Part shown: positions 4,484 to 26,209 of the stretch, piece after piece
Layout: the number at the start of each line of letters is the position of its first letter
How positions within the stretch are numbered: position 1 is the stretch's first letter
Virus record (IMG/VR): IMGVR_UViG_3300000226_000008
Span: 1-26,209 of that record
Source: a virus
Length of the DNA stretch: 26,209 nucleotides
Strand: one strand, 5' to 3'
The notes under the pieces: model-generated
What the model was told of the DNA's origin: nothing
Seen by the model: only the letters and a program-made list of their open reading frames with translations
Databases searched by the model: none
Made by a program: the position numbers and the translations under genes

Positions 4484-4912
4484 ATGCAATGGAACTATCA
4501 AGACAAAATTATACAAGAAATCAATGATCTCCCAGAGGGCGCATTTGGTTTCATCTATCAAACAACTCATTTACCAACAGGAAAGAAGTACATTGGTAAA
4601 AAATCTTTAATTTACAATTTAAAGAAAAAATTAGGCAAAAAGGAAAAAGCCCTATATGAAGGTAAAGGCCGCCCACCAACATTCAAAAGAGTGTTAAAAG
4701 AAAGCGATTGGAAAACTTACTATGGTTCACATGCTTTTATTAAAGAAGCACATAATTATGATTTACATAGAAAAATACTACAGATTGCTTATAATAAAAA
4801 AGAACTTACATACTTAGAATGTAAATATCAATTTATATTAGAAGTTTTAGAAGACAAACAATATCTCAATGATAATATATTAGGTAAATTTTATGACAGG
4901 GACTTCAAATAG
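4484..4912 (+). CDS. SegE-like GIY-YIG domain protein (142 aa)
   Basis: The segment GFIYQTTHLPTGKKYIGKKS at residues about 22-41 has the spacing of a GIY-YIG nuclease core (GFIY for GIY, KYIGK for YIG). The rest, including SDWKTYYGSH, the pattern KELTYLECKYQF and the ending YLNDNILGKFYDRDF, fits the SegE-like GIY-YIG proteins of T4-like phages. GIY-YIG enzymes cut DNA, in T4 as free-standing homing endonucleases or in recombination and repair. An Arg and a Glu are usually needed for catalysis; candidates are present, but I cannot confirm them without alignment. It overlaps the next gene by 20 bases. Start: ATG within ACGTATGCAATGG. Confidence 0.75.
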   Translation: MQWNYQDKIIQEINDLPEGAFGFIYQTTHLPTGKKYIGKKSLIYNLKKKLGKKEKALYEGKGRPPTFKRVLKESDWKTYYGSHAFIKEAHNYDLHRKILQIAYNKKELTYLECKYQFILEVLEDKQYLNDNILGKFYDRDFK

Positions 4913-5423
4913 AAAACTATTCCAGTTTGATATATCTACAGAAAAATCAGATTTACTATTAACCTTTTTAGAAACACGAGATCTTGAAAAAAACATAGGA
5001 TTTACAGTAAATTTTGGAATAAAGTGTAATAATACAAGTTGTATTCATGATTTTGGAAACATGAATATTAATATTAAAACAAACAATCATGAATTTTATA
5101 GTATTATGAATGTTGTTTTTAATAAAATTGGGGATTTTTTAAAAGATAACCCTAAATATTGTTTTCTTTCTTTTATGACCAAAGTCCCAATATTAGAAGA
5201 ATTCTATCAAAGAATGGCTACAAAAAGGTGGCCGGATATTACTATTAAAAAAAATAAAGACACACGTGAAGTTTATATATATAGAGATGGGGTAGAATGG
5301 AAGGGAGAAATTTTTAAATCAATAGATACAAAAACTAATAAAGAAGTTCCCCAAGAACCTTTTAGTTATTTTGAATTCCCTTTACGAAATAAAATAATAA
5401 ACCATCTTAAAAGATTTAAGTAA
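4893..5423 (+). CDS. Hypothetical protein (176 aa)
   Basis: The family is not recognised. The predicted start lies inside the end of the upstream GIY-YIG gene (20-base overlap), and the stop TAA overlaps the start of the primase gene as TAATG, so it is translationally coupled on both sides. The protein is soluble in appearance. A middle segment (NNHEFYSIMNVVFNKIGDFL, then PKYCFLSFMTKVPILEEFYQ and RMATKRWPD) is loosely like the C-terminal part of acetyltransferase folds, but this is too weak to call. Its place between a nuclease-like gene and the primase hints at DNA metabolism, by context only. Confidence 0.7.
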   Translation: MTGTSNRKLFQFDISTEKSDLLLTFLETRDLEKNIGFTVNFGIKCNNTSCIHDFGNMNINIKTNNHEFYSIMNVVFNKIGDFLKDNPKYCFLSFMTKVPILEEFYQRMATKRWPDITIKKNKDTREVYIYRDGVEWKGEIFKSIDTKTNKEVPQEPFSYFEFPLRNKIINHLKRFK

Positions 5424-6378: not shown

Positions 6379-9300
6379 ATGGCAAACATCGCACTTTTAC
6401 CTGGTGGATTTAAACCACCCCATGCTGGACATTACGCCGTAACTAAATATCTTTCTCAAAAATCGGGGGCAGAAGTTTTAGTTAGAGTAGGAGCAAAAGA
6501 AAGAGATAGCATAACACAAGCTATGTCAATTAAAATATGGGACATATATGGTGTTAACGCTGAACCAGCTTCTTCAGATTCTCCTATTGCGGATGTTTTT
6601 AAATATGTAGAAGAAAAAGCTACAGAGGAAGACACAATTTATGTAGGTACAGGAGAAAAAGATTTTCCACGTTTTAAAGTATTAACAGACCCCTCATTTA
6701 AACCAGATAATTACAAAAAATACAACCCAAAGGGAGTAAAAGTAATAGAAATACCAATCCCACCACAAGCAGGAGGTGTGTCAGGTACTAAAATGAGAGA
6801 ATTTGTTATGAATGATCAAAAAGATCAATTTCAAGAATTTTTACCAAACCATGTAGATAAAGATAAAATTTGGGGTATAGTATTAGGTTTAAATGAAAAT
6901 CTTTCAGAATCAAAGACCATTACTATTAAATATACAACAGATAATATAAATAATGGTTTTATAAAATTAAAAGACGTAGAAAATAAAGGAAATTATGTCC
7001 AAGCTTCAGATATAAAAATAGTAGATAAAGACACAGAAGAAGAAGATCCAAATCTTAGTGGTGATAATAAACCTTTTGCAAATCCTGATAATGCCAAAAA
7101 TATCCCCGATGAAATTAAAGATATTAGTGGGGATATTTTTGAGGGGACTTTAATCTCAACAAATGATAATTCTTTAACATCTTTTAAAAATAAAACCATA
7201 ACAATTATGGGGTTATCAGAAGATGAAAACACTTCAGGAAGAAAATTTTTAATAGAAACAGAAGGCAAAACAACAATAGCAACATTTACAGACTCTGAAT
7301 TAAATGAAGATCTATATGACCCAAACGACCATGTTTTAGATTATATGAAAAGCAGTGAATTTAAAGCAGGATATACAAAACCAGATGACATTGAACCTGG
7401 GTACAAATATAGAAGAGGAGGAATGTATACTGGTGGGGGAATGGGTGCAGGAGGAATGTATGAATCTCTTGAGGGGGATAAAGCAAGTAAAATATTTGTT
7501 ATGAAATCTCCTCATACCCCTAAAGGACAAAAATGGGATCATATAGGATTTATATTAAATGATGGAAGATTAAGAGATATGAGTGGTCATAGAGGATCAG
7601 ATAAGGCCCCAGAAACATACAAATACGAAGATACAGAAGAACTCTTCCAAATGCCTAAAGATAAAAATGAGGCAATAAAAAAAGGATTATATGCTGAAAA
7701 ACCACTACCTAAAGAAATAACAATACCAGATACTATAGCTTGTGATATTAAAACAAAAAACAAAGCAGAAAATTGTGGTAGTTTTGTTAAAATAGTATTA
7801 TCAAATAATGGTATAGAAACAACAAAAAGTAATTGGATGGGGGATATTTATAATTCTTTAAATGAAGATCATCAATCAGAAACTGGTAAAATTTTACATG
7901 CTTACGATTTTGACGACACAATAGCTCAAGTAAAAGCTAATATTAGAACTACTATAACAAGTCCTAAAGGAGATTATGAAAGGATATTAGACATACCTTC
8001 AGATAAATTCCCCGAAGTTTCTAAAGAAATGGAAGCAAAATTCAGTATGATGAATTTCGATTATAATTTCTCAGAATTTGAAAAACAAATAAACGATGCT
8101 ATTGTAAATAGTAAAGTCTTAAATAAACTAAAATCATCTTTAAGTAATCCTCAAATAAAAACAACTATACTAACAGCTCGTTCTATAGGACACCCAGTAA
8201 CAAGATATCTTAAAAGTATAGGTTTAGACGCTTATGTTGTACCTTTAGGATTACAAGTAGGAGGTAGAGTAACAGGCCAAGATAAAGCAGATTGGATTGA
8301 AAATCATATAAATAAAGGCTATAAAACAGTTTACTTTATTGATGATTCAGAAGAAAATAGAACAGCAGTAGCTGCATTAAAAGACAAACACCCAGACGTA
8401 AATTTAACAGTAGAAGACCCAGCAACCGTTAATGAAATGATGGGTATGATGTCTGAACCCGAAAAAAAGAAACATGCTAAAAACATGAAACGCTTAAGTA
8501 AGGATATGTCTAATATGAAAGGAAATAACTATGGGGGAGGAGGTTACAAAGTACCTGATTATGTAAAAGGCACACTTACAAGAAAAATGACTGAGAAAAT
8601 GTCAACAGCAGACATAGACGCTGTAGACACATTCGCAGATAAACAACTTAATCCTGTTGACGTAGATTTAACATCTAACCATTTTTTCGACAGATTAAAT
8701 GATCCTCGTAATCAAAAAGAAATATCACAAGCAGAATTAATTGGATTCTTTAAACGTTTAGCTAGAAAAAAAGACGAATTTGTTAAATTTTTAGTTAAAT
8801 ATAAAGAATTAGTAGTTTATGATAATAGAACAAACATAAATATCCCCTTCATGAAGTCAGCTAATTCAGCAATAGCTAAAACTGTAATGAGGAAAAAAGA
8901 TTTCCAAACATCTAGTCCAAAAATATCATTAGAAACAACATATGCAGGAGATGGGATAGACCCCTCTCATACATCAGGGTATGGGGGACACGATTTAATT
9001 TCTCAATATAAGGATCAGATAAAAGATCCTCAACAATATAGAGATCTTCAACTTATGATAGCTCAAAATAAAGATAAAGAAGCAAAAAAATGGTTAAAAG
9101 TAAATGGATATATGAATGAAACAAAAGTATTTTCACAAGAATGGTGGAAAGAACAACTCACAGAAGTTATAACAGAAACAAAAGCAAACACACATTTAAC
9201 ACATCTTGAAGAATTAGTATTAACTCAAGGACAAGATGGTTTTAATCAAGCAAAATCTTTCCTTTATGAATTAATTAAAAATTTAAAAGGGGAAGACAAT

Positions 9301-10335
9301 TCAATTAAAAATGTATCTGTAAAATGGGATGGTGCACCTGCTATATTTACAGGTATCAATCCAGAAAATGGAAAGTTTTTCGTAGGTACTAAGTCAGTAT
9401 TTAATGTAAATCCTAAAATCAATTATACTCCTCAGGATATAGACACAAACCATGGACATGCAGCTGGTTTAGCTAAAAAATTAAAATTAGCATTACAATA
9501 TTTGCCTGCTATAGGGATAAGGGGCATATTACAAGGTGATTTTATGTTTGACAGTGATGATGTAGATACACAAAATATAGAAGAAAAACCACATTATACT
9601 TTTAAACCAAATACAATTAGATACGCAGTTGAAGCAAATTCAGATTTAGGTAGAAAAATAAATACAGCAAAAATAGGAATAATATTCCATACAACATACA
9701 ATGATTTAAAACCTGGTAGTGGTGCTTCATTTGGAGCTGATATAGATGGATTAAATCCTTCTAGTAATGTTTGGTTTGATGATGCTTATTTTAAAGATGA
9801 CACTGGTGTTTTATTAAGTAGTGAAGAAGAATCATTTGTATTAGGAAAAATTAAAGAAGCAGATTCAATTAATGTAAATTATGAAAATCTACCCTTATCA
9901 AGTTTAAATACTTATCTTAATAGTGAAATAAGGCAAGGTGAATTTTTACAAAACCCTATAAAATCTTTTGAAAATTTTAAAAATTGGTACCAACAAGCAG
10001 TTGATAAAAGTATCGAAAAAGTTAAACGACCAGAAACTAAAGAAAAGAAAAAACAAGCGGGAGAACAAAAAATTAAAGAATTTGATTCTCAAAAACAAGA
10101 TATAATAAATATATTTAAAATAAGTAAATCACTTTCTGAAGCAAAAGCTATATTTATAACCAAATATGATAAAGCTGTATCAACTAAACACTTTATCGAT
10201 AATGGAGACGGTACTTTAAGCGTAACTAAGGCAGAAGGATTTGTAGCAGTTGACCATACAGAAAATGGTATTAAATTAGTTGATAGATTAGAGTTTAGTA
10301 AAAATAATTTTAACGCAGGAAAACCAGGAGCATAA
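6379..10335 (+). CDS. 1318-aa multidomain protein: NMNAT-like, NlpC/P60-like, HAD and ligase-like domains
   Basis: Residues 1-165 are a class I nucleotidyltransferase of the NMN/pantetheine-phosphate adenylyltransferase type: LLPGGFKPPHAGHY with HxGH at 15-18 and the downstream SGTKMR at 135-140. Residues about 370-490 may be a permuted NlpC/P60-like fold (WDHIGF with His388, NCGSFV with Cys466). Residues about 500-680 form a HAD phosphatase: DFDDT at 510-514, ILTARS at 597-602, Lys636, IDDSEEN at 654-660. Residues about 745-845 resemble a segment seen in cyanophage proteins (LNPVDVDLTSNHFFDRLNDP, TVMRKKDF). Residues about 935-1215 are a ligase-like nucleotidyltransferase with KWDG at 982-985 and GILQGDFMF at 1049-1057. 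Sites of form L/I-x-E lie between domains (173/177, 310, 496, 933, 1254), raising the possibility of prohead-protease processing. Its stop overlaps the next start. Confidence 0.85.
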   Translation: MANIALLPGGFKPPHAGHYAVTKYLSQKSGAEVLVRVGAKERDSITQAMSIKIWDIYGVNAEPASSDSPIADVFKYVEEKATEEDTIYVGTGEKDFPRFKVLTDPSFKPDNYKKYNPKGVKVIEIPIPPQAGGVSGTKMREFVMNDQKDQFQEFLPNHVDKDKIWGIVLGLNENLSESKTITIKYTTDNINNGFIKLKDVENKGNYVQASDIKIVDKDTEEEDPNLSGDNKPFANPDNAKNIPDEIKDISGDIFEGTLISTNDNSLTSFKNKTITIMGLSEDENTSGRKFLIETEGKTTIATFTDSELNEDLYDPNDHVLDYMKSSEFKAGYTKPDDIEPGYKYRRGGMYTGGGMGAGGMYESLEGDKASKIFVMKSPHTPKGQKWDHIGFILNDGRLRDMSGHRGSDKAPETYKYEDTEELFQMPKDKNEAIKKGLYAEKPLPKEITIPDTIACDIKTKNKAENCGSFVKIVLSNNGIETTKSNWMGDIYNSLNEDHQSETGKILHAYDFDDTIAQVKANIRTTITSPKGDYERILDIPSDKFPEVSKEMEAKFSMMNFDYNFSEFEKQINDAIVNSKVLNKLKSSLSNPQIKTTILTARSIGHPVTRYLKSIGLDAYVVPLGLQVGGRVTGQDKADWIENHINKGYKTVYFIDDSEENRTAVAALKDKHPDVNLTVEDPATVNEMMGMMSEPEKKKHAKNMKRLSKDMSNMKGNNYGGGGYKVPDYVKGTLTRKMTEKMSTADIDAVDTFADKQLNPVDVDLTSNHFFDRLNDPRNQKEISQAELIGFFKRLARKKDEFVKFLVKYKELVVYDNRTNINIPFMKSANSAIAKTVMRKKDFQTSSPKISLETTYAGDGIDPSHTSGYGGHDLISQYKDQIKDPQQYRDLQLMIAQNKDKEAKKWLKVNGYMNETKVFSQEWWKEQLTEVITETKANTHLTHLEELVLTQGQDGFNQAKSFLYELIKNLKGEDNSIKNVSVKWDGAPAIFTGINPENGKFFVGTKSVFNVNPKINYTPQDIDTNHGHAAGLAKKLKLALQYLPAIGIRGILQGDFMFDSDDVDTQNIEEKPHYTFKPNTIRYAVEANSDLGRKINTAKIGIIFHTTYNDLKPGSGASFGADIDGLNPSSNVWFDDAYFKDDTGVLLSSEEESFVLGKIKEADSINVNYENLPLSSLNTYLNSEIRQGEFLQNPIKSFENFKNWYQQAVDKSIEKVKRPETKEKKKQAGEQKIKEFDSQKQDIINIFKISKSLSEAKAIFITKYDKAVSTKHFIDNGDGTLSVTKAEGFVAVDHTENGIKLVDRLEFSKNNFNAGKPGA

Positions 10336-10515: not shown

Positions 10516-10830
10516 ATGAGCAATTTAAAAGAAACAGCAACAGAATTAGGATATTTAAATGAAAATGATATATTCCAAAAAATAGAAAATGGAGTAAATG
10601 CAATATCTGGAGGAGGAAGAAGACATGGATCTGTTTCTGATAGAGGAGATAAAATTAGAATTAAATTTTCTTATATGAGAGATGAATTTAGTGATGAAGA
10701 CTGGGGTAAAATTAAAACATACCTTACACAAATGGGACTTGAAATTATAGATGCAAAAAATCACTATGAAAAAAATTGGGAACCAGAAGAACCAGCAGAA
10801 CAAGTTCCAATAATACATTTAAAAAAATAA
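10516..10830 (+). CDS. Hypothetical protein (104 aa)
   Basis: The family is not recognised. The start is one base after the previous stop. The product is soluble and charged, with a Gly-rich SGGGRRHGSVSDRGD turn around residues 31-45, followed by an alternating beta/alpha pattern (KIRIKFSYMRDEFSDEDWGK, then KTYLTQMGLEIIDAKNH) and a short acidic/Pro tail. The arrangement could be a small alpha/beta RNA- or protein-binding fold, but this is a guess. The stop is five bases before the start of the next gene, in the same operon-like run. Confidence 0.65.
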   Translation: MSNLKETATELGYLNENDIFQKIENGVNAISGGGRRHGSVSDRGDKIRIKFSYMRDEFSDEDWGKIKTYLTQMGLEIIDAKNHYEKNWEPEEPAEQVPIIHLKK

Positions 10831-10835
10831 AAGTT

Positions 10836-11453
10836 ATGCAACAAAAAGCACAAGGATTAAGAAAAGAATTCAGTAAAAAAGATGTAAATAGAGCCCGTAA
10901 TTTAATTATGGGTAAAACTGGCGCCTCTACAGGCACACAAGTAGGATATAAAAAAGAAACCAAAGAATACAAAGAGGGTGATATTTGGACAGAAAATAAA
11001 AAAACATGGACTATTAAAAATGGTATAAAACAAACAATTTCGAAGTTAGATGCTATTAAAAAAGAAGTATTTGTTCCTTTATGTTGCCCAAAATGTAGTA
11101 AAGTAATGAAAAGTCGTTTAAGTAAAGATAATTATAAAGTACATAAAAAATGTCATGATTGTGTTATAGAATTTGAACATAAATTAAGAATTCGTGGACA
11201 ATATGATGATTATGTAAAACTTTTAAAAGCAAAGAACAACCTTACTATACTAGATGAAATGGAGTCATATTTATTAGGCGCAGTAAATGCTACAAATGAT
11301 GGGTTTGTGTCGGAGCAGGGTGAAGTAGAAAGATGGGTAGGAGGTATTGATAAAGAAAAAATATCTAAAGATATAACAAGGACGGCAAACGAAAGAAGAG
11401 AAGATTTAATAAAAGAAATCAATGACCAAGAGGGAACTAAGAGAACTAATTAG
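10836..11453 (+). CDS. Zinc-ribbon phage protein (205 aa)
   Basis: I place the start at the ATG at 10836 (context AAAAGTTATGCAAC). An in-frame ATG 60 bases upstream would overlap the previous gene and add residues unlike the rest. The protein has MQQKAQGLRKEFSKKDVNRA, then TQVGYKK, EGDIWTENKKTWTIKNGIKQ and a four-cysteine cluster CPKC at 84-87 with HKKCHDC at 103-109, followed by VIEFEHKLR. This pattern is shared by conserved proteins of cyanophages and other T4-like marine phages, annotated as hypothetical. A structural zinc site is likely; the partner (nucleic acid or protein) is unknown. Its end overlaps the next gene by 32 bases. Confidence 0.75.
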   Translation: MQQKAQGLRKEFSKKDVNRARNLIMGKTGASTGTQVGYKKETKEYKEGDIWTENKKTWTIKNGIKQTISKLDAIKKEVFVPLCCPKCSKVMKSRLSKDNYKVHKKCHDCVIEFEHKLRIRGQYDDYVKLLKAKNNLTILDEMESYLLGAVNATNDGFVSEQGEVERWVGGIDKEKISKDITRTANERREDLIKEINDQEGTKRTN

Positions 11454-11688
11454 AAGTACTATAAAAGAATACACAGGTACTGGAGCTGGGGGAGGCGGAC
11501 ATAATCCTACTGATGGTAATAATGTTACTTCCCAACGTATAGGAGGTTCTTTTAAGACTGATGGAGATGAAATTGAATTTTATAATAACCAAAATGCAGG
11601 AAACGGAGGACAGGGACTACAAACAAGGGGAATGGAAAAAACACAAGCAGTAGGTAATCCTAATAGATCACGTTTTACAAGAATGTAA
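11422..11688 (+). CDS. Small Gly/Asn-rich protein with leader-like N-terminus (88 aa)
   Basis: The first 17 residues, MTKRELRELIRSTIKEY, form a basic amphipathic helix containing I-K-E after which a prohead protease could cut (Glu16). The remainder is a low-complexity, Gly/Asn/Thr-rich chain (TGTGAGGGGHNPTDGNNVTS and onward) without an evident fold. Together this looks like a protein targeted into the head by its leader. The same architecture appears in the next gene and in the gene at 13706. The assignment as an internal head protein is inference from the leader shape and from neighbourhood. It overlaps the previous gene by 32 bases and ends one base before the next start. Confidence 0.65.
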   Translation: MTKRELRELIRSTIKEYTGTGAGGGGHNPTDGNNVTSQRIGGSFKTDGDEIEFYNNQNAGNGGQGLQTRGMEKTQAVGNPNRSRFTRM

Positions 11689-11689
11689 T

Positions 11690-13417
11690 ATGAAGAAAAA
11701 AGACATCATACAATTAGTTAAAAAAATAGTAAAAGAAAATAACCCACACCCAACCTTTTATGGTAATCGTGAACAACCAAGTACTCTTGGAAGTACATCA
11801 GCTATTGCCCCTGCAGGTAAAGATCCATATACTGGAAAAAACGAATACCCACATTCTGTTAGACCTAAAAGAACAGGATCAGGTTATATGCAGGAAAACG
11901 AATCTACTTCTTTTAAAGTAGTAAATGCAGACACAGGAAAAACAATAGACTTTGGTTTAGATCAGGCAAAAGCAGAAGAAATAGTAGCCGCAGCTAAAGA
12001 AGACAACATAAACGCTAAAGTAGTTAAAATGAAAGATGAAGATGATGTAGGTACGTTAAAAGAATTTACTTCAATGGGTCAAGAAGGAATTTATCCTAGA
12101 AGAGAAGAACCAGGCGACATGTTCCAGCAAAAAGAAGTAGAAGAATTACTTCCTAATGGTATGGCTTCAAGAGATGATAGAGCATTTCAAGACAGATTAA
12201 AACAACACGCTGACTGGACTGAAGAATCAGGATATAACAATACTTTTGTTCATATACAGTACCATGACAGCTTTGATAGAGAGCATAGTTACCGAATCCA
12301 CCAATCACAAAATTACAATGGTAATTATAAAGATTTTAGAAATCCTAAATTTACAGTATTAACCATTACAAAAACCAAAGATGGAAAAGAAGAAGAATTA
12401 GGTAAATACATTGTAGACACTGATGCTTATCTAAAAGATTTTGCAAAACTTCGTAATGATGGTGTGTTAGGAAAACAAGTAAGCGAAAATAAAAATAAAG
12501 AACTAACAGATAACCCAAAACTACAACCAGGTAAAACAGTAACTTATAGTGGTACAAGATATGAAGTAATTGAAAACTCTGGATATGTATTAACGTTAAA
12601 ATCACTAGAAAGCGGAAACGAATTAAAATTAAATCTAGGCCAACTTAAAGATCGACCTATAAAAGAAAATAACATGAAAAAAAACATTAAAGAAGCAGAC
12701 CTATATACATTAACATCAACAGATGGAGAAGAAAAACAAGTATCTTTCCCTGATCAGAATACAGCAATGGCTGCTGCATCAAAAAACGCAAATGTTAAAC
12801 AAGTAGTAAAATTAGAAGGAGAAGACGATAGTGATCTAGAACAAATCCAAAAAGGAAAAATGGTTCAACTAAATAAATATTTTGAGGACATAGGAAAAAT
12901 GAAACTTGGGGATGGTACTATAGATGTAGGGTATGCCAAAATGGATTTAGTTCCTGGAGTAAAAGAAAATACTCCTGATGAAGATGAAGATGAAAACCAA
13001 TCTCAAGATGATATAGCAAGGGGAGTTGATGATGCAAAAGATTTTATGGAAGCTTACATTAAAGAAAGAGGCGACGACAATTTAATGGAGCATATGGACA
13101 AATATAGAAAAAGAGCTACATTAATGGAAGGCGCTACTGAAAAATTATTTAAATTATTTAATGCAGGTAAAACAGACTTAGAAGTAAGATCTCATTATTT
13201 ACAAATGAATGTAGATATGCCTGAATCATTTATAGCTAAACTTAGAAATAATTGGGAATCTCTTAGAAAAACAAAATTAGACCTTACATTAGCTGATAAA
13301 GAAGCAGAAGGATTTGAACCAATACAACAAGCAACCCCAGCAAACGGAATGGAAGGAGGAGAAATTGATGGAATGGAAGAAACAAAAGAATTAGCATCAG
13401 GACTATTTACAAAATAA
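11690..13417 (+). CDS. Putative internal head protein with repeated modules (575 aa)
   Basis: The N-terminus MKKKDIIQLVKKIVKENN is a basic amphipathic helix ending V-K-E (Glu16), comparable to capsid-targeting leaders. Two related alpha/beta modules follow at about 74-120 (FKVVNADTGKTIDFGLDQAK ... NAKVVKMKDEDD) and 337-380 (LYTLTSTDGEEKQVSFPDQN ... VKQVVKLEGEDD). A second leader-like string MKKNIKEA stands at 329-336, just before the second module, as if two leader-bearing genes had fused. Residues about 185-255 form a beta-rich part. Residues about 478-535 (EGATEKLFKLFNAGKTDLEV, then MPESFIAKLRNNWESLRKTK) look like a helical domain. Acidic linkers separate the parts. No enzyme motif is visible. 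Function is unknown. Confidence 0.7.
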   Translation: MKKKDIIQLVKKIVKENNPHPTFYGNREQPSTLGSTSAIAPAGKDPYTGKNEYPHSVRPKRTGSGYMQENESTSFKVVNADTGKTIDFGLDQAKAEEIVAAAKEDNINAKVVKMKDEDDVGTLKEFTSMGQEGIYPRREEPGDMFQQKEVEELLPNGMASRDDRAFQDRLKQHADWTEESGYNNTFVHIQYHDSFDREHSYRIHQSQNYNGNYKDFRNPKFTVLTITKTKDGKEEELGKYIVDTDAYLKDFAKLRNDGVLGKQVSENKNKELTDNPKLQPGKTVTYSGTRYEVIENSGYVLTLKSLESGNELKLNLGQLKDRPIKENNMKKNIKEADLYTLTSTDGEEKQVSFPDQNTAMAAASKNANVKQVVKLEGEDDSDLEQIQKGKMVQLNKYFEDIGKMKLGDGTIDVGYAKMDLVPGVKENTPDEDEDENQSQDDIARGVDDAKDFMEAYIKERGDDNLMEHMDKYRKRATLMEGATEKLFKLFNAGKTDLEVRSHYLQMNVDMPESFIAKLRNNWESLRKTKLDLTLADKEAEGFEPIQQATPANGMEGGEIDGMEETKELASGLFTK

Positions 13418-13427
13418 AAATAAAATT

Positions 13428-13706
13428 ATGAGTTTAAATTGGACAAAAGCAACATATGTTGCAGCAACAAAAGAAATAACAGGCAGTATTTGCAAAATAT
13501 ATGCTGAGGGGGCTTTAGATCTTCACCCTATGGCCTTTGGTACGTACAGAGAGACAGGAATTACAGGATCTGTTACAGTACATTCTAGAACAGCAGCTGC
13601 TGTTTCTGTACCTGCGGGAACAACATTTGATGGACCCATATGCATGGCTAAAACAAATGCAGTTACTTGTGTAGTATACCATAATGGTCCTCTAATTATA
13701 AAATAA
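13428..13706 (+). CDS. Small beta-rich protein, possible virion component (92 aa)
   Basis: The family is not recognised. The chain is dominated by alternating Val/Thr/Ala/Gly (TGITGSVTVHSRTAAAVSVP, then AGTTFDGPICMAKTNAVTCV and VYHNGPLIIK), typical of a compact beta-sandwich such as a head-decoration or small structural protein. There are three cysteines but no CxxC. The start context is ATAAAATTATGAG; the stop overlaps the next start as TAATG. Position among putative head-internal proteins and before the holin supports a virion role only by context. Confidence 0.65.
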   Translation: MSLNWTKATYVAATKEITGSICKIYAEGALDLHPMAFGTYRETGITGSVTVHSRTAAAVSVPAGTTFDGPICMAKTNAVTCVVYHNGPLIIK

Positions 13707-14149
13707 TGAAACTACTTAGAGAATATATAAGAAAAGAAGTTAAGAGATTATCTGAGGATGGTATGAAATCTTATCCTATACCTCCAGAAATCAGAAATGC
13801 TTTAGAAAATAGTCTTAAGCTTAAACCTCTTGTTAGATATGTATCTACTTTAAAAGCATCAGCAACAGTACCACCTAGTTATAGAGTATTTTTCAATAAT
13901 AACCAAGTTATTGATTTATATATAGAACAAATAGGAATAAGAGCAGAAATATCAAATAAATCTTATTGGTTACAAGATATAAGAGAAGCAAATGAAGCAA
14001 TGGCCGCACTTAATAGATTATTAACTCAACCTATCCCCGTATCGGGTGAAGAAGAAGGTGGAGAAGGTGGAGAAGAGGGGGATAGTGGAGAAGAATCATT
14101 TGATGAACCTGCAGCTGATGAACCAGCTGAAGATGAACCAGAAGCATAA
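13706..14149 (+). CDS. Leader-bearing acidic-tailed protein, possible internal head protein (147 aa)
   Basis: The first 17 residues, MKLLREYIRKEVKRLSE, form a basic amphipathic helix ending in L-S-E, the consensus for cleavage by T4-type prohead proteases. A compact alpha/beta body follows (residues about 24-115). The last 35 residues are an extremely acidic, Gly-rich tail with repeated DEPAADEPAEDEPEA-like units. Acidic tails occur in prohead core proteins and in proteins that avoid DNA while sharing the head with it. The gene overlaps its neighbours on both sides by single-base TAATG junctions. Function is unknown; internal head protein is the best inference. Confidence 0.65.
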   Translation: MKLLREYIRKEVKRLSEDGMKSYPIPPEIRNALENSLKLKPLVRYVSTLKASATVPPSYRVFFNNNQVIDLYIEQIGIRAEISNKSYWLQDIREANEAMAALNRLLTQPIPVSGEEEGGEGGEEGDSGEESFDEPAADEPAEDEPEA

Positions 14150-14544
14150 TGGAACTAAAAGAAGCCTTAGGGGAAATATTTAAAAAAGCAAGGGAGCAAT
14201 TTGACATTCAAAATGTACCTTCTCTCCATCTAAAACAAGATGAGGAAAATGCTCAAGGCATCTTTGGCAAAACAGCATACTATGATCCATCAAATATGTC
14301 TATTGTTTTATACATTACAAACAGACACGATAAAGACATTTGTAGATCATTTGCACATGAATTAATTCATCACGTTCAAAATGAAAGAGGTGATTTAGAT
14401 ATGGGTGATGCAACCAGCCCAACATACGCTCAAGATGATAAACATATGAGAAAAATGGAAATGGAAGCATATTTAAAAGGCAATCTTCTCTTTAGAGATT
14501 GGGAAGATTGGATGAAAAATTATAGACAAACAAATCAAAACTAA
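14149..14544 (+). CDS. Zinc metallopeptidase-like protein, HExxH (131 aa)
   Basis: The motif FAHELIHHVQNERG gives HExxH at His70-Glu71-His74, the zinc ligands and general base of zincin metallopeptidases. The downstream KMEMEAYLKGN (Glu104/Glu106) can supply the third zinc ligand, as in gluzincin-like folds. The upstream part EENAQGIFGKTAYYDPSNMS and IVLYITNRHDKDICRSFAHE resembles a small phage family that I recall from marine T4-like phages. No signal peptide is present, so it would act in the cytoplasm, in the head, or after injection. Substrate is unknown. It starts on the last base of the previous gene and precedes the holin gene by six bases; a role in lysis or in capsid maturation is possible. 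Confidence 0.75.
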   Translation: MELKEALGEIFKKAREQFDIQNVPSLHLKQDEENAQGIFGKTAYYDPSNMSIVLYITNRHDKDICRSFAHELIHHVQNERGDLDMGDATSPTYAQDDKHMRKMEMEAYLKGNLLFRDWEDWMKNYRQTNQN

Positions 14545-15075: not shown

Positions 15076-15113
15076 AGCTGTGGCCTCCAATTTGGTAGCC
15101 ACAGCTTTTTTTT
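15076..15113 (+). terminator. Rho-independent terminator
   Basis: AGCTGTGGC (15076-15084) pairs perfectly with GCCACAGCT (15098-15106) across a 13-base loop and is followed by a run of eight T (15106-15113). This is a strong intrinsic terminator closing the transcription unit that runs through the small genes, the holin gene and the mini-gene. The following gene therefore needs its own promoter in 15114-15139. Confidence 0.85.
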
Positions 15114-15139
15114 GTACGTTACCACAAAATCAACAAAGT

Positions 15140-16423
15140 ATGAATATAGTAATTGTAGGAGCAGGTGTTGCAGGTGTAAACGCCGCTACAAAATTAGTAG
15201 ATAACAATTTTAAGGGTAAAATAACAATCATTGATATGGGTTTAGATCCATATAGAAGACCAACCTCCGATGTAATGAGAGGTTTTTTAGGTGCTGGTGG
15301 TTGGTCAGATGGTAAATTAACTTACCACACTTCAATAGGAGGACATTTATCTAAATATTGTGGGGAAGAAAAATCAATGGAATTATTTGATCAAGTAATT
15401 GATAATTTTAAACGTTTTCACCCAAACCCAGACGAAGTACAATGCTCAAATCCAGAAGCAGAACCTGATTTTATTAAACCACATTTTGGTTTAAGATTAT
15501 TCCCTGTATGGCATGTTGGAACTGATTATCTGCATGAAATTGGCAAGAATTGGTATGATTATTTAGTAGAAAAAGGTGTAGAATTTAAATGGGAAACTAA
15601 AGTAACAGACATCAATTTTGACAATAGAGAAGTACACACAGATCAATATATAATACCCTATGATAAATTAATATTTGGTGTAGGTAAATCAGGGATTGAT
15701 TTTGCAAAATCTTTAGCTGAAAAGTACGAATTACCTACAGAACCAAAACCAGTACAAATTGGAGTACGATTTGAAGCACCACAACACCACTTTCAAAAAT
15801 TAATTGATATTGCTTATGATTTTAAATTATATAGAAAATTTGAAGCTGAAGGTGTGTCATTAAGATCATTTTGTACAAATAATAATGCAGCTTACGTAGC
15901 AGCTGAACACACATATGGAGATATAAGTTATAATGGTCATGCTAAAAAAGATAAAAAATATGAAAATGGTATGACTAATTTTGGTATTTTAATGGAAATT
16001 AAAGACATAGATAAACCATTTGATTGGGCAAGAGAAGCAGTAAAGAAAATGCAAGTAGATGGTAAAGGAACTTATTTTTCCCCAAGTCATAGAGTACCTT
16101 CAAAAACAACAGAAGGAGATTACGTAGAAACACAAGTAGTAGATAATATAGAACCTTTATATGATGCCATAGGAGATTATGCTATTTACATTCAAGATTT
16201 TATTCATGATATGGAAAGAGTATTTCCTACATTAGGTAAAGATTGGGGAATTTACATGCCTGAAGTAAAATACTTAGCACCAGAACCTTTAGTTAACTAC
16301 GATGATTTGAGTTTAACTAGGTTTCCTAACGTACATTTTGTAGGTGATGCATTATCAGCAAGAGGTATAACAGTTTCAGGAGCTCAAGGTACATTAGTAG
16401 CAGAACAATTATTAAAAAATTAA
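15140..16423 (+). CDS. FAD-dependent dehydrogenase/oxidoreductase (427 aa)
   Basis: I take the ATG at 15140, because an in-frame ATG 60 bases earlier would lie inside the terminator hairpin. With this start the protein opens with a classical dinucleotide-binding fold, MNIVIVGAGVAGVNAATKL (GxGxxG at 7-12). The C-terminus FVGDALSARGITVSGAQGTL (then VAEQLL) is the second FAD-contacting motif of this class. Between them are LIFGVGKSGIDFAKSL and GVRFEAP segments that fit the uncharacterised FAD-dependent dehydrogenases (COG2509 type). No signal peptide is present, so it is cytoplasmic. The substrate is unknown. As an auxiliary metabolic gene it could affect redox or cofactor metabolism. It stops three bases before the next gene. 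Confidence 0.8.
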   Translation: MNIVIVGAGVAGVNAATKLVDNNFKGKITIIDMGLDPYRRPTSDVMRGFLGAGGWSDGKLTYHTSIGGHLSKYCGEEKSMELFDQVIDNFKRFHPNPDEVQCSNPEAEPDFIKPHFGLRLFPVWHVGTDYLHEIGKNWYDYLVEKGVEFKWETKVTDINFDNREVHTDQYIIPYDKLIFGVGKSGIDFAKSLAEKYELPTEPKPVQIGVRFEAPQHHFQKLIDIAYDFKLYRKFEAEGVSLRSFCTNNNAAYVAAEHTYGDISYNGHAKKDKKYENGMTNFGILMEIKDIDKPFDWAREAVKKMQVDGKGTYFSPSHRVPSKTTEGDYVETQVVDNIEPLYDAIGDYAIYIQDFIHDMERVFPTLGKDWGIYMPEVKYLAPEPLVNYDDLSLTRFPNVHFVGDALSARGITVSGAQGTLVAEQLLKN

Positions 16424-17279: not shown

Positions 17280-18869
17280 ATGGCTCAACCAAACATAAAA
17301 CAAATCATAAAGCAGGAGTACATTAAATGTGCTAAGGACCCTGTATACTTTATGAAAAAATACTGTTGGATTCAACATCCAACAAGGGGCCGTGTACAAT
17401 TTAATTTATACCCCTTTCAAGAAGGTACATTAAATTTACTACAAAAGAATGATAGAAATATTATTCTTAAATCAAGACAGTTAGGAATTTCGACCTTATC
17501 CGCAGGTATTTCGTTATGGATGATGGTATTTCAAAAAGATAAAGCAATACTTGTAGTAGCAACAAAACAAGACACAGCTAAAAATTTGGTAACAAAGGTT
17601 AAATTTATGTATGACAATTTACCATCTTGGTTACAAATTGGTTTTACAGAAAATAATAAATTAGCACTTCGACTTAAAAATGGTTCTCAAGTAAAAGCAG
17701 TATCAGCAGCAAGTGATGCTGGTAGATCGGAAGCAATTTCTTTACTGATTATTGATGAGGCTGCTTTTATTGAAGAAAACAGAATTGAAGAAATTTGGGG
17801 TTCATCACAACAAACATTATCAACGGGGGGTAGAGCAATTGTATTATCTACACCAAATGGCACAGGTAACTTTTTTCATAGAATGTGGACTAAAGCAGAA
17901 GAAGGAACTAACGGATTTACTCCTATTAGATTACCTTGGACTGTACATCCAGAAAGAAATAAAGAATGGAGATCAAAACAAGATGATGAATTAGGTTTAA
18001 GAATGGCAGCACAAGAATGTGATTGTGATTTTACAACTTCTGGTAATACTGTGTTTGAAACAGAAATAATGAAGTTTGTAGAATCAACAAACATATGTGA
18101 TCCTATAGAAAGAAGAGGAATAGAAGGAAATTTACATATTTGGGAATATCCAGATTATACAAGAAATTACATGATAACAGCCGATGTTGCTAGAGGTGAC
18201 AGTAAAGATTATTCTGCTTTTCACATTATCGATATTGAAGAAGCTAAACAAATTGGTGAATTTAAAGCACAAATTGGTACTAAAGAATTTGGACATATGT
18301 TAGTTTCAATTGCAACTGAATATAATAATGCATTACTTGTAGTTGAAAATGCCAATATAGGTTGGAATACAATTCAAGTAGTAATAGATAAAGGATATCA
18401 AAATTTATATTATTCACCTAAAGGAGACGCAGCAACAAATGCAGATTCATTTTTAGCTAAAGGATACGACATAACAGACACAACAAAAATGGTTCCTGGT
18501 TTTACAATGTCAATGAAAACAAGACCATTAACAATAGGAAAATTAGACGCTTATTTAAGAGATAAAGCAATCACTATTCAGGGAAAAAGAACATTAGAAG
18601 AAATGAGAACTTTTATTTGGAAAAATGGAAGAGCAGAAGCACAAACAGGATATAATGATGATTTAGTAATGTCTTTAGCAACAGCTTGTTATGTTAGAGA
18701 CACAGCACTTAAATTTGCACAACAAGGAATTGACATAACAAGAGCAGCATTAAAAAATTGGTCAAAAACAACCCCAGGCATATACACAGGAGGAGTAAAT
18801 AAAAAACAAGCAGGATGGACTCAAGATTTAGGTGATCGTGGAGAACAAGATTTGACTTGGCTCCTTTAA
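17280..18869 (+). CDS. gp17: Terminase large subunit (T4 gp17-like)
   Basis: The 529-residue protein is the packaging motor ATPase and headful nuclease. The ATPase domain has a Walker A-like loop KSRQLGIST (64-72), Walker B LLIIDEAAF (155-163, with Asp159-Glu160) and the coupling motif STPNGTG (190-196). The nuclease domain starts at ITADVARGDSKDYSAFHIID (Asp302), with later acidic residues in VVENANIG and YNDDLVMSLATACYVRD. The C-terminus ends DRGEQDLTWLL. It is a little shorter than T4 gp17 (610 aa). No small terminase gene is recognisable nearby. It is followed by the promoter-like motif and the portal gene; the T4 genes 18 and 19 that normally intervene are absent here. Confidence 0.95.
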   Translation: MAQPNIKQIIKQEYIKCAKDPVYFMKKYCWIQHPTRGRVQFNLYPFQEGTLNLLQKNDRNIILKSRQLGISTLSAGISLWMMVFQKDKAILVVATKQDTAKNLVTKVKFMYDNLPSWLQIGFTENNKLALRLKNGSQVKAVSAASDAGRSEAISLLIIDEAAFIEENRIEEIWGSSQQTLSTGGRAIVLSTPNGTGNFFHRMWTKAEEGTNGFTPIRLPWTVHPERNKEWRSKQDDELGLRMAAQECDCDFTTSGNTVFETEIMKFVESTNICDPIERRGIEGNLHIWEYPDYTRNYMITADVARGDSKDYSAFHIIDIEEAKQIGEFKAQIGTKEFGHMLVSIATEYNNALLVVENANIGWNTIQVVIDKGYQNLYYSPKGDAATNADSFLAKGYDITDTTKMVPGFTMSMKTRPLTIGKLDAYLRDKAITIQGKRTLEEMRTFIWKNGRAEAQTGYNDDLVMSLATACYVRDTALKFAQQGIDITRAALKNWSKTTPGIYTGGVNKKQAGWTQDLGDRGEQDLTWLL

Positions 18870-22493: not shown

Positions 22494-23120
22494 ATGAGCG
22501 AGTTACTAACTGAATATATCCCATTTAAAGTAGATAAACAATTATTAGAGGCTTCTATTAGAAAAAATAAACCTCTAATGGTTACAGGTGTTTTACAAAG
22601 AGCAAATGCTAAAAACCAAAACGAAAGAGTTTATCCAAAAGACATTTTAGCTAGAGAAATTAGATCTTATATGGAGGGTCCAATTAGAGAAAAAAGAGCA
22701 TTAGGTGAATTAGATCACCCAGAATCTTCAGTAATTAATCTTCAAAACGTATCTCATAACGTAACAAAAGTTTGGTGGGAGGGTGATGACGTAATGGGGG
22801 ATGTTGAAATTTTACCTACACCTGCAGGAAACATATTAAAAGCATTATTTGGTTCAGGTATTACTATTGGTATTTCATCTCGTGGTATGGGTTCAGTGTC
22901 AGAAAATATTAATGAGGGCACAGTAGAGGTACAAGATGATTATGATTTATTATGTTTTGATTTTGTTTCTACTCCATCAACACATGGTGCTTTTTTATCC
23001 CCAACAGTTAATATAAACATTAACGAAGGTAAAATACAAGTACCTAAATATAAATATACAAACGTAAACAACATAATTCGCGATATTATCTGTGATAATA
23101 CAGGTACTTGCGCATGTTAG
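22494..23120 (+). CDS. gp21: Prohead protease (T4 gp21-like)
   Basis: The 208-residue serine protease of the herpesvirus assemblin-like fold cleaves scaffold, capsid and internal head proteins during prohead maturation. GELDHPESS supplies the catalytic His75, GISSRGMGS the catalytic Ser (128 or 129), and YDLLCFDFVSTPS the following conserved strand. The N-terminal region VTGVLQRANAKNQNERVYPK matches the usual pattern (NRNGRxYP-like). Near the C-terminus are I-N-E sites (NINEGK) that could be used in self-cleavage. The length is close to T4 gp21 (212 aa). It precedes a 218-base intergenic region with several hairpins. Confidence 0.92.
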   Translation: MSELLTEYIPFKVDKQLLEASIRKNKPLMVTGVLQRANAKNQNERVYPKDILAREIRSYMEGPIREKRALGELDHPESSVINLQNVSHNVTKVWWEGDDVMGDVEILPTPAGNILKALFGSGITIGISSRGMGSVSENINEGTVEVQDDYDLLCFDFVSTPSTHGAFLSPTVNININEGKIQVPKYKYTNVNNIIRDIICDNTGTCAC

Positions 23121-23338: not shown

Positions 23339-23779
23339 ATGAAAAATTTAATTATGACACTTGCTGTAGCACTATTCACAACGTTTGCTGCATCAGCACA
23401 ATTTATGGTAGTTACTACTGTAAATACTCCTGACAGCGATTTAAACGAAGAATGGGGTACAACTAATTTTACTGACAACATCGGTATCGGGTATGTTTAC
23501 AACGATAAATGTGTTGTTGGTTTGGTAAAGGCAGGAGAAGACGCTGAAGGCGAAACTTCTTACGACCTTTGGGGCCGTTACAACTGGAACGCAAACATGT
23601 TCGTTTCAGTTCAAGCACCAACAGAAGAAATGATGGACAACTTAACAGTTGGACTTGGTTACTCTTATGATGTGTGGAAAGGGCTTTGCGTTGAACCTAA
23701 CTACAGTATGGGTTTAAAAGAAGATGAAGCAGGTGAAAGAAATGGTTCTTTCAACTTAGGTTTGTCTTACAAGTTTTAA
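23339..23779 (+). CDS. Secreted outer-membrane beta-barrel-like protein (146 aa)
   Basis: The N-terminus MKNLIMTLAVALFTTFAASA is a clear Sec signal peptide, with predicted cleavage before Gln21, the Bacteroidota-typical ASA|Q junction. The mature 126 residues show alternating strands with aromatic girdles (GIGYVYNDKCVVGLVKAG, SYDLWGRYNWNANMFVSVQA, LTVGLGYSYDVWKGLCVEPN) and end in LGLSYKF, whose C-terminal Phe is the usual signal for outer-membrane barrel insertion. It has slightly higher GC and more C-ending codons than its neighbours, suggesting recent acquisition from a host or high expression. A role in masking the phage receptor or changing the outer membrane during infection is possible; a virion role is unlikely given the signal peptide. 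Confidence 0.7.
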   Translation: MKNLIMTLAVALFTTFAASAQFMVVTTVNTPDSDLNEEWGTTNFTDNIGIGYVYNDKCVVGLVKAGEDAEGETSYDLWGRYNWNANMFVSVQAPTEEMMDNLTVGLGYSYDVWKGLCVEPNYSMGLKEDEAGERNGSFNLGLSYKF

Positions 23780-24248: not shown

Positions 24249-25418
24249 ATGGCAAACAACATTTTAAAAGAGGCAATCGCTGACGCTAAGGCAGTTCGTG
24301 AAGTTGCTCTTGCAAATGCAAAGGCCGCATTAGAAGAAGCTTTTACACCAAAACTTCAATCTATGTTATCTGCTAAATTATCTGAAACTTTAAATGAAGA
24401 GGAAGACGATTTAGATGAAAATGTAGAAGAAACAGAAACAGTAGATGAAATTACTGGTATGGATGAAGAAGATACAATGGATGAAAGTGAAAATCTAGAT
24501 GAGGAAATTGATTTGGAAGAAATTCTTAATGAATTAGAATTAGAAGAAGGCGAAGACTCAAAAGAAGAAACAGTCGAAGAAGCTAAGGACAAAGATGAAG
24601 AAACTATGGACGAAGCTAAAGGCGACGAAGAAGAAATGGAAGAGGCAGTAGGTTATCCAAACCACCGAGCAGACAATATGAAGAAAGTACATCACCAAGC
24701 TGATGACATGAATCAAGGTTTGAAAGAGGGTGAAGATTTTGACCTAGATACTCTTCTAGAAGAGATCAACAATTTAGACGAAACAGAAGACGAAGTTAAC
24801 GAAGAAGTTGAAGACATCAAAGAATTTGATAGATATGGAGGCAAAAAAGCTGCTGACACTTCACAAAGTGATTCACTTAGAGCTATGGCATCATCAGCAT
24901 CTTCTTACGAAGACTGGCAAGCTAAAGCTACAGAAGCAGGAGCTCACCCAAACATCATTAATAGTGATAGATGGAAAGCATATGTTGAAAAACAAATAAC
25001 TGCAGAAAGTATGTATGAAGCTTTAGAAACTGAACTCGCAGAAACTCAAGCAGCACTTGAAGTTAAAACTACTGAACTTAACGAAGTTAATTTGTTAAAC
25101 TCTAAATTATTGTATGTTAACAGAATCTTTAAAGCAAATACTTTAGATGAAGGACAGAAACTACGTGTAGTTGAAACTTTAGACAAAGCTGATAGTATTA
25201 AAGAAGCTAAGTTAATTTACGAAACAATCAAAGATACTTTCAATGTTGCTAAATCAAAGAAAGCATCAGTAAAATCTAAAACGAAATCTATAAAAGAAGG
25301 TTTAGGAATGGCTTCTAAAGCTGCAGGAATGTCTACAGCTAAAAAAGAAGTTATCTCAGAATCTAATAATATGATAAATCGTTTTCAAAAATTAGCAAAT
25401 ATTAAAATTAATCAATAA
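24249..25418 (+). CDS. gp22: Prohead core scaffolding protein (T4 gp22-like)
   Basis: The 389-residue protein has the architecture of T4-type scaffolds: a helical N-terminus (ILKEAIADAKAVREVALANA), a very acidic Glu/Asp region (about 50-135 and 160-192), a long coiled coil (about 253-285, SMYEALETELAETQAALEVK), the following VNRIFKANTLDEGQKLRVVE segment, and a basic C-terminal part ending NRFQKLANIKINQ. It fills the prohead core, guides capsid assembly and is degraded by the gp21-like protease. It is longer than T4 gp22 (269 aa) because of an expanded acidic part and a non-acidic stretch at about 195-250 (YEDWQAKATEAGAHPNIINS). It is followed 22 bases later by the capsid gene. Confidence 0.9.
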   Translation: MANNILKEAIADAKAVREVALANAKAALEEAFTPKLQSMLSAKLSETLNEEEDDLDENVEETETVDEITGMDEEDTMDESENLDEEIDLEEILNELELEEGEDSKEETVEEAKDKDEETMDEAKGDEEEMEEAVGYPNHRADNMKKVHHQADDMNQGLKEGEDFDLDTLLEEINNLDETEDEVNEEVEDIKEFDRYGGKKAADTSQSDSLRAMASSASSYEDWQAKATEAGAHPNIINSDRWKAYVEKQITAESMYEALETELAETQAALEVKTTELNEVNLLNSKLLYVNRIFKANTLDEGQKLRVVETLDKADSIKEAKLIYETIKDTFNVAKSKKASVKSKTKSIKEGLGMASKAAGMSTAKKEVISESNNMINRFQKLANIKINQ

Positions 25419-25440
25419 CCTTAATAAAAAATTACAAAAA

Positions 25441-26209
25441 TGAACGTAAATAATTTATTAGCAGGTTCAAGCCCTTACCAAGTTCTTTCCGAGCAGTCAG
25501 CTAAATTAGCAGGCAAATGGGAAAAATCAGGACTTTTAGAAGGAATTGAATCTTCAACAGAAAAGAATAACATGTCAATGTTATTAGAAAATCAAGCTAA
25601 ACAGCTTGTAAACGAAGCTAACTCAACAGGTACAGATGCATCTATTGCAACTGGTAATTCTGAAGCGTGGGCGGGTGTAGCTCTTCCATTAGTACGAAGA
25701 GTATTCGGAGAAATCGTAGCAAAAGACCTAGTGTCAGTTCAACCAATGAACTTACCAGCAGGTTTAATTTTCTACCTTGACTTCCAATATGGTTCATCTA
25801 CAGATCTTAATAAGACAAGTGGAGAATCACTTTATGGTGCTGAAAGCACTTTAAAAAGAACTGACGGTGCGTTTGACAAAGGTCTTTACGGTGCTGGTGA
25901 GTTCTCTTATTCAAGTGAAAGAAGCTCTTCAGTTTCTATTACTACAAATGGTGCTGTAACAGGAGCTGCTACTTATGCAGGAATCTTGAACTTTGACACT
26001 GAATTCTCATCTTCAAATGAAGGTACTTTTGGTCTTGCAACAGCAGCTGCTAACGATACAGTTGTAACGTTAAAAGTTCCAGTTACTAAAACATTAGGAT
26101 ATGACCCAGAAGCAGTAAGATCAATGACTGTATCAGGATCTAACATTTCTGCATACTACCCACAGTATACAAGAATTAATGGATCTAATGTAGAATTTGT
26201 TATCAAGCA
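25441..26209 (+). CDS. gp23: Major capsid protein (T4 gp23-like), 3' partial
   Basis: The gene begins at ATG 25441 (context ATTACAAAAATGAAC) and runs off the window after 256 codons; T4 gp23 has 521 residues, so about half is present. The N-terminal part (residues 1-59) is helical and would be removed: the site LVNE|A after Glu59 aligns with the known gp23 site (LTE|A after Glu65). The mature start continues with GNSEAWAGVALPLVRRVFGE and VSVQPMNLPAGLIFYLDFQY, the hallmark of gp23 proteins (VQPM..P.G..F). Ser/Gly/Thr-rich loops follow (about 120-190), probably insertion-domain-like. It forms the hexamers of the head shell. Confidence 0.95.

Follow-up and report, generated by a model that had tools for sequence, protein, structure and literature searches.

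A single uninterrupted reading frame of 1318 residues occupies positions 6379-10335 of a 26,209-nucleotide stretch of viral DNA (IMG/VR record IMGVR_UViG_3300000226_000008, positions 1 to 26,209; hereafter the window), a fragmentary viral record in which a T4-like late block is present. Its product is a chain of up to eight modules laid end to end, nearly every one of which closes in the triplet [LIVM]-x-E. Our preferred interpretation, to which we give a probability of roughly 0.72, is that the open reading frame (ORF) encodes a precursor polyprotein of a T4-like phage that is packed in the prohead, cut by the gp21-type protease and ejected.

Scans of viral contigs returned eight close relatives, 63 loci with a query of the type of locus L009, a related polyprotein, and 44 loci with the C-terminal domain DUF6267 as query. 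The polyprotein set comprises 101 related ORFs, 69 of them non-redundant.

Sites at the joints between modules

The modules of the chain and the sites that close them are as follows.

6379..10335, plus strand: polyprotein ORF, 1318 residues; 101 related ORFs with shuffled modules
6379..6888, plus strand: module 1, residues 1-170, NMNAT/NadD-like nucleotidyltransferase by its model; HxGH at 15-18, SGTKMR at 135-140; no preceding leader
6889..6909, plus strand: joint sites LNE173 and LSE177; homology break at 172 (16 ends of high-scoring segment pairs); low-confidence linker from 172
6910..7308, plus strand: module 2, residues 178-310, ending LNE310; also in loci L086 and L108
7309..7464, plus strand: short conserved segment, residues 311-362, ending MYE362
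7465..7866, plus strand: probable permuted papain/NlpC-like domain, residues 363-496, with H388 and C466, ending LNE496
7867..8436, plus strand: HAD-fold phosphatase by its model, residues 497-686, DFDDT at 510-514, ending VNE686
8437..8595, plus strand: segment MMGMM...VKGTLTRK, residues 687-739, ending MTE739 (LYE in several relatives)
8596..8973, plus strand: helical module, residues 740-865; similar standalone protein in Flavobacterium phage immuto, leader MKKSQLRQIIKE
8974..9120, plus strand: short helical module, residues 866-914, ending MNE914
9121..9177, plus strand: leader-like segment TKVFSQEWWKEQLTEVITE, residues 915-933, sites LTE929 and ITE933; aligns with N-terminal leaders of standalone DUF6267 genes; low-confidence model
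9178..10332, plus strand: DUF6267, residues 934-1318; K982xDG, QGD, EGxV and KLVDR; Pfam PF19782, 2e-96

The joints of this chain lie at 172-177 (LNE, LSE), about 288-310 (LNE), 340-362 (MYE), 496-501 (LNE), 686 (VNE), 739 (MTE), 912-914 (MNE) and 929-933 (LTE, ITE). The sites at 173, 177, 310, 362, 496, 686, 739, 914 and 933 are found in low-confidence stretches of the models or at domain edges; over much of 172-501 the low confidence may reflect only a shallow alignment. An earlier reading of the sequence (the original prediction) had named five sites and proposed structure prediction to see whether they lie in linkers. All five exist, and those at 177, 310, 496 and 933 stand at joints; MYE362, VNE686, MTE739 and MNE914 had been overlooked, and LNE173 and LTE929 flank sites that were listed. 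The fifth, SLSE at 1254, sits in a predicted helix of DUF6267 (321-348, model residue 336) and is excluded as a joint because it is inside a folded domain.

Counting triplets alone is uninformative. The chain contains 23 [LIVM]xE triplets against 18.8 ± 3.8 in shuffled versions, which is the chance level; the original prediction had said as much and had found only the placement at domain borders suggestive. That suggestion is borne out in the relatives, in which the sites occur at joints far above chance. Joints were defined as the points at which two chains gain or lose pairwise homology although neither of them stops there, with no use of the motif and with non-redundant contexts. Of the 163 starts, 99 have [LIVM]xE at a distance of at most 8 residues (39.9 for random positions in these proteins, standard deviation 5.3, z = 11.2), and of the 162 ends, 88 do (39.9, standard deviation 5.4, z = 8.9). 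An earlier run with 36 proteins agrees with this 69-protein run. The z values overstate independence because the proteins are related, a relatedness that the control motifs share. The controls [LIVM]xD, [LIVM]xQ, [LIVM]xK, [LIVM]xN, [LIVM]xxE, polar-x-E and aromatic-x-E gave z values from -1.4 to 1.2, and the strongest control, [LIVM]E, gave 2.5 at starts and 0.0 at ends.

One could suppose that the sites are chance occurrences or a by-product of acidic, flexible linkers, and the triplet total at the chance level speaks for this. Against it, those breakpoints show no enrichment of polar-x-Glu, aromatic-x-Glu, aliphatic-x-x-Glu or aliphatic-x-Asp, -Lys, -Gln or -Asn, and LNE is 1.8 times as frequent in the polyproteins as in the remaining proteins of their contigs. 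On account of the breakpoint test with its control motifs we consider this explanation very unlikely.

Ten recognizable module starts are preceded by a site in 151 of 169 distinct upstream contexts, in windows that were picked after the sequences had been viewed, the two breakpoint runs alone being blind to the motif. In these contexts P3 is spread over Leu, Val, Ile and Met, P2 is mostly Asn, Thr, Lys, Gly, Tyr, Ser, Asp, Glu or Gln, with Asn the commonest, and P1 is Glu by definition. At single joints the aliphatic P3 and the P1 Glu are kept while P2 and the upstream module vary. The sequence DLYxPxD, for example, is preceded by LNE, IQE or LDE across the relatives and MMGxM by VNE, LDE, VSE or IEE. 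The HAD module has a site 8-12 residues upstream in 17 of 19 non-redundant relatives.

Identity and shuffling of the modules

Confident recognition by Pfam and PHROGs is limited to the C-terminal DUF6267 (phrog_455), PHROGs giving otherwise one weak match, and searches of PDB sequences with the whole chain and with a DUF6267 profile gave no useful match. The remaining assignments draw on models and motifs. The original prediction had placed HxGH at 15-18, DFDDT from Asp510 and KWDG from Lys982, and each is found there. In a model of the front part of the chain (942 residues, 28 sequences) the NMNAT part (1-170) and the HAD part (about 502-690) are confident, while residues 172-501 almost all have a predicted local distance difference test score (pLDDT) below 50, partly from the shallow alignment there.

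Judged from its AlphaFold2 model (pLDDT about 92), whose top Foldseek matches are nicotinate mononucleotide adenylyltransferases (NadD structures), the first module is an NMNAT-like domain, with both motifs of that family present as H15AGH18 and S135GTKMR140. The Pfam family CTP_transf_like matches weakly in the window (0.2) and at 0.0005-0.009 in relatives. Residues 497-686 have, again by their model, the fold of a HAD phosphatase. The model is confident over much of 502-690, the HAD domain of Lem4 is matched, below the adenylyltransferases in the Foldseek ranking, with an E value of about 0.01, and the DxDxT motif is present as D510FDDT514. Neither module 2 nor the papain-like module has a convincing Pfam match. 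For the latter the original prediction had proposed an NlpC/P60-like fold, which is plausible from the Cys-His candidates His388 and Cys466 and has no Pfam support; the model there has low confidence, and from its sequence we regard the module as a probable permuted papain/NlpC-like domain. It recurs in other contexts, being 72% identical inside the L009 polyprotein and 98% in locus L008.

Viral contigs contain at least 592 stretches that match DUF6267. Modelled alone (51 sequences) it reached a pLDDT of 84, the first 20 model residues, with the ITE933 site among them, falling below 50. Foldseek gave weak matches, the best (E = 0.39) being a tRNA ligase. With VIA-align all 50 rows shown were RNA or DNA ligases or ligase-containing complexes, T4 Rnl1 and Rnl2 among them, the best being a Naegleria RNA ligase (Z = 8.5, 180 residues, 3.8 Å). 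The columns K-x-D-G, Q-G-D, E-G-x-V and K-x-x-x-R are invariant in the 51 sequences. These ligase rows and invariant columns make DUF6267, at the level of its model, a probable RNA-ligase-like nucleotidyltransferase.

Segmentation divided the 69 proteins into 458 modules, which form 69 clusters and are arranged in 67 different architectures. As the segmentation moves cuts onto nearby sites, it illustrates shuffling and is no test of the sites. In it NMNAT is always first and DUF6267, where present, always last; the modules directly after NMNAT are of 20 kinds and those directly before DUF6267 of 11 kinds, with no module on the other side of either. In immuto, which has been cultured, NMNAT does not stand first. 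There are two NMNAT-bearing clades. That of the window ends in DUF6267, and that of L009 has a leader at the start (MNELTKFLIKELLDE and similar) and other modules at the end. The relatives carry as further cargo GNAT domains, an NT5C-type HAD phosphatase, a Pol-beta nucleotidyltransferase and M78-like and M91-like metallopeptidases, several of these below Pfam cut-offs; metallopeptidase modules occur in 40 of the 69. We also observed a weakly Tox-ART-HYD1-like ADP-ribosyltransferase module (L035:5214-5789, E = 1.3e-4, similar in L004 and L111), which in concept recalls T4 Alt, and a plastocyanin/azurin-type copper domain as a polyprotein module (L037:7111-7725, Pfam E = 2.9e-18).

Leaders, the prohead protease and the route into the virion

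In other phages DUF6267 is mostly a separate gene. Of the 65 standalone genes whose start lies within the fetched viral contigs, 58 open with a short leader that places [LIVM]xE immediately ahead of the conserved N-T-H-L-E-H region (for example MYSFKQYLNE, MKFTEFLTE and MQSFLTFLTE). Leadered DUF6267 is likewise found in Pelagibacter phage HTVC008M, Methylophilales phage Melnitz, Stenotrophomonas phage DLP_6 and phage C48C1. These leaders resemble the capsid targeting leader of T4 IPIII. The first ten residues of the T4 leader are reported to be enough for packaging (PMC9026906). The internal segment KVFSQEWWKEQLTEVITE of the window protein, before DUF6267, has the same position as the standalone leaders, as if a leadered gene had been fused.

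Other modules occur with leaders of their own. In immuto the NT5C-type phosphatase, which is fused in L009, is a separate gene with the leader MKKVMGNLADLLLE, and a protein resembling window residues 740-865 is a separate gene with the leader given above; both are near the gene of a 907-residue polyprotein. That polyprotein, gp088 of vB_FspM_immuto_2-6A (NC_055915), has NMNAT, a metallopeptidase and further modules, with predicted borders at LAE/ALDD ahead of NMNAT and at MAE/GRYD. Of the NMNAT-type polyproteins, 40 are leadered and 31 leaderless. The original prediction had mentioned leadered single-domain versions in cyanophages, and the NMNAT-like protein of S-CREM2 begins MKNFSSFLTE/ADEK, the slash marking the end of the leader. 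A 547-residue ORF in L204 consists of DUF6267 and one front module, whose end (AKTVMRKKDFKTSGPKLSFESFLAE) resembles window residues 740-865, and looks like an intermediate step in polyprotein assembly. In L047:5028-8321 and L061:6001-9168, segments such as FGLNELARTFVKEVFE are repeated between modules and resemble internal leader copies.

The late block of the window encodes a candidate processing enzyme.

17280-18869: terminase, T4-like late block
18894-20741: portal, T4-like late block
22494..23120, plus strand: gp21-type prohead protease; phrog_207, 2e-52; motifs GELDHP, GISSRG and DFVSTPS
24249..25418, plus strand: probable gp22-type scaffold, from acidic composition and position between gp21 and gp23; no PHROG match
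25440..26207, plus strand: major capsid protein gp23, cut off by the window end; propeptide sites LLE, LLE and VNE, ending KQLVNE/A

The phrog_207 protease is present in six of six related records of at least 128 kb and in one of 29 kb; the four records without it are fragments of 18 to 47 kb. Homologues of gp23 were found in 12 of 12 genomes tested, and triplets like those at the polyprotein joints recur in the gp23 propeptides of these phages. The cut point of T4 gp23 aligns with KQLVNE/A of the window's gp23. One viral record of 268,739 bases (G004, loci L123 and L130) has a second gp21-type protease gene and a second gp23 gene about 200 kb from the first ones, which may reflect a joined or duplicated assembly.

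Proteins resembling the NMNAT module have been detected in virions. In P-HM2 DUF6267 (T4-GC71) adjoins the cytidylyltransferase T4-GC190, which has been detected in S-SM1 virions (PMC3037559), and NMNAT-like proteins are present in virions of S-CREM2, S-SCSM1, S-CBWM1 and S-SZBM1 (PMC10665884, PMC9602691). T4 Alt is cut by gp21 at both ends, at ITE-6 and LTE-619 (PMC5694885).

From these observations we infer the following course of events. The chain would be drawn into the prohead core by leader-like segments, in the window probably the internal one before DUF6267, and the gp21-type protease would split it into separate proteins while trimming gp22 and gp23. The freed pieces would be ejected into the host with the DNA and act at the moment of infection. 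The NMNAT could rebuild NAD and possibly counter NAD-depleting defences (NAD reconstitution by phages is known, by another pathway; PMC12774641), and RNA repair could fall to the RNA-ligase-like domain, perhaps acting with the HAD phosphatase. We lean also towards a broader proposal, in which marine T4-like phages build combinatorial payloads as single polyproteins, with [LIVM]xE-ended modules inserted and swapped and the head-maturation protease freeing the enzymes within the capsid, so that infection would deliver them in equal numbers.

Several observations weigh against packaging and cutting. At 853-868 the joint has no better site than ISLE, a poor one. The window protein starts MANIALLPGG, directly with NMNAT, as does its closest clade, so that we infer its recruitment to the head; the T4 targeting leader is N-terminal, whereas the leader-like segment here is internal (915-933). 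Some cyanophage DUF6267 proteins are leaderless, and a 591-residue fusion of DUF6267 and a cytidylyltransferase (NMNAT) in S-PM2 (L115:2947-4722) has neither joint site nor leader; packaging is therefore not universal for these domains. The NMNAT of the polyproteins is only remotely related to those of cyanophages, with E values of about 4e-6 to 1e-4 for a profile built from 43 rows and searched in a 34-protein set from which the S-CREM2 protein was absent. No virion proteomics for any such polyprotein, including that of immuto, was found in the literature searched. The original prediction that the protein is packed, cut by a gp21-like protease and injected is well supported, indirectly, by the joints, the standalone leaders, the protease gene and the cyanophage virion proteins, with corrections for site 1254, for the overlooked sites and for the N-terminal leader that the window protein lacks.

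Two alternatives make use of these points. The protein might be a 'polyvalent' multidomain protein that is packaged, injected and works uncut, the sites being relics of the leaders of fused genes. Proteins of the polyvalent kind are known (PMC5512222), the S-PM2 fusion manages without a joint site and internal leader-like segments are what the fusion of leadered genes would leave. Relics should decay, yet the P1 Glu and aliphatic P3 recur while P2, flanks and upstream module change, and modules are gained and lost with a site at their borders; we consider the explanation unlikely. Less probable again is that the fused enzymes are made and used in the infected cell and never packaged. The gene has a primase gene as its upstream neighbour, NMNAT, phosphatase and ligase could serve ordinary phage metabolism, and cyanophages have leaderless DUF6267 and NMNAT genes. 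Such a role gives the joint sites no reason to exist, and most standalone DUF6267 relatives have leaders ending in [LIVM]xE.

Genomic setting, known systems and implications

Genes downstream of the polyprotein gene include the following.

10516..10830, plus strand: small protein starting MSNLKETATELGYLNE
11422..11688, plus strand: small protein, leader-like start MTKRELRELIRSTIKE
11690..13417, plus strand: 575-residue protein, leader-like start MKKKDIIQLVKKIVKE
13706..14149, plus strand: 147-residue protein, leader-like start MKLLREYIRKEVKRLSE
14149..14544, plus strand: standalone HExxH metallopeptidase (SFAHELIHHVQN); weak Pfam metallopeptidase matches

The first four have leader-like starts ending in [LIVM]xE, and on this sequence feature their products are possibly more virion cargo. 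The metallopeptidase is a single-gene counterpart of a module inside the polyproteins of related phages, and the product of 4893-5423 is a standalone, weakly DUF6934-like relative of another. Between the gp21 and gp22 genes, the product of 23339-23779 is small and begins like a signal peptide (MKNLIMTLAVALFTTFAASAQF). A dehydrogenase-like flavoprotein (phrog_12409) with a GTG start is encoded at 15080-16423, with a P-loop kinase and the terminase downstream. The host is probably a marine member of the Flavobacteriia, because the sole relative found in a scan of genome contigs is in a Flavobacteriales metagenome-assembled genome and the cultured relative immuto infects Flavobacterium.

Leadered internal proteins of T4 and polyvalent proteins are known already. 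T4 IPI-III and Alt have leaders of about ten residues ending in [LI]xE, like the standalone relatives here, and are served by the same protease class encoded in the genome, with aliphatic-x-Glu sites; in Alt a further cut falls close to the C-terminus (PMC5694885, PMC9026906). In T4 each packed protein has a gene to itself, whereas here many unrelated modules follow one another in a single chain, most of their borders bear a site, and the composition is reshuffled from phage to phage. Polyvalent proteins of phages and conjugative elements (Iyer et al., 2017; PMC5512222) likewise place many disparate, partly conflict-related domains in one polypeptide, as this chain does with NMNAT, HAD and ligase-like domains identified by structure or profile, and their ADP-ribosyltransferase, GNAT, metallopeptidase and Pol-beta nucleotidyltransferase domains are seen in the relatives. 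They are predicted to be injected, their authors compare them with viral polyproteins, and a peptidase in the chain for self-processing is common among them and not universal (PMC5512222). The border sites of the window chain, in contrast, fit a separate head-maturation protease, and a peptidase of its own is limited to the possible papain-like module. The text of PMC5512222 makes no mention of NMNAT and has 'prohead protease' only in its reference list.

The cyanophage virion NMNAT/cytidylyltransferase (T4-GC190) and DUF6267 (T4-GC71) are the same two ingredients, separate adjacent genes in P-HM2 and fused with other cargo here. In phiKZ and SPN3US the gp21 relatives gp175 and gp245 cut the propeptides of head and ejected proteins after Glu; the cases described concern propeptide removal and not the separation of several enzymes from one chain (PMC5694885, PMC9026906). 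In the open-access full text searched we found no description of effector chains with borders matching a head-maturation protease.

If our interpretation is correct, the role of the head-maturation protease extends beyond the trimming of capsid and core proteins, for which it is known, to the processing of a modular effector polyprotein. The sequence of a T4-like genome could then reveal its virion cargo, since every cargo protein would be bordered by such sites. This would provide a route to uncharacterized early-acting phage proteins, among them RNA-ligase-like, NAD-making, ADP-ribosyltransferase-like and peptidase modules, and DUF6267 becomes testable as an RNA-repair enzyme. Should the combinatorial payload proposal also hold, these chains would be to phages what polyproteins are to eukaryotic viruses, with a capsid protease as the processing enzyme.

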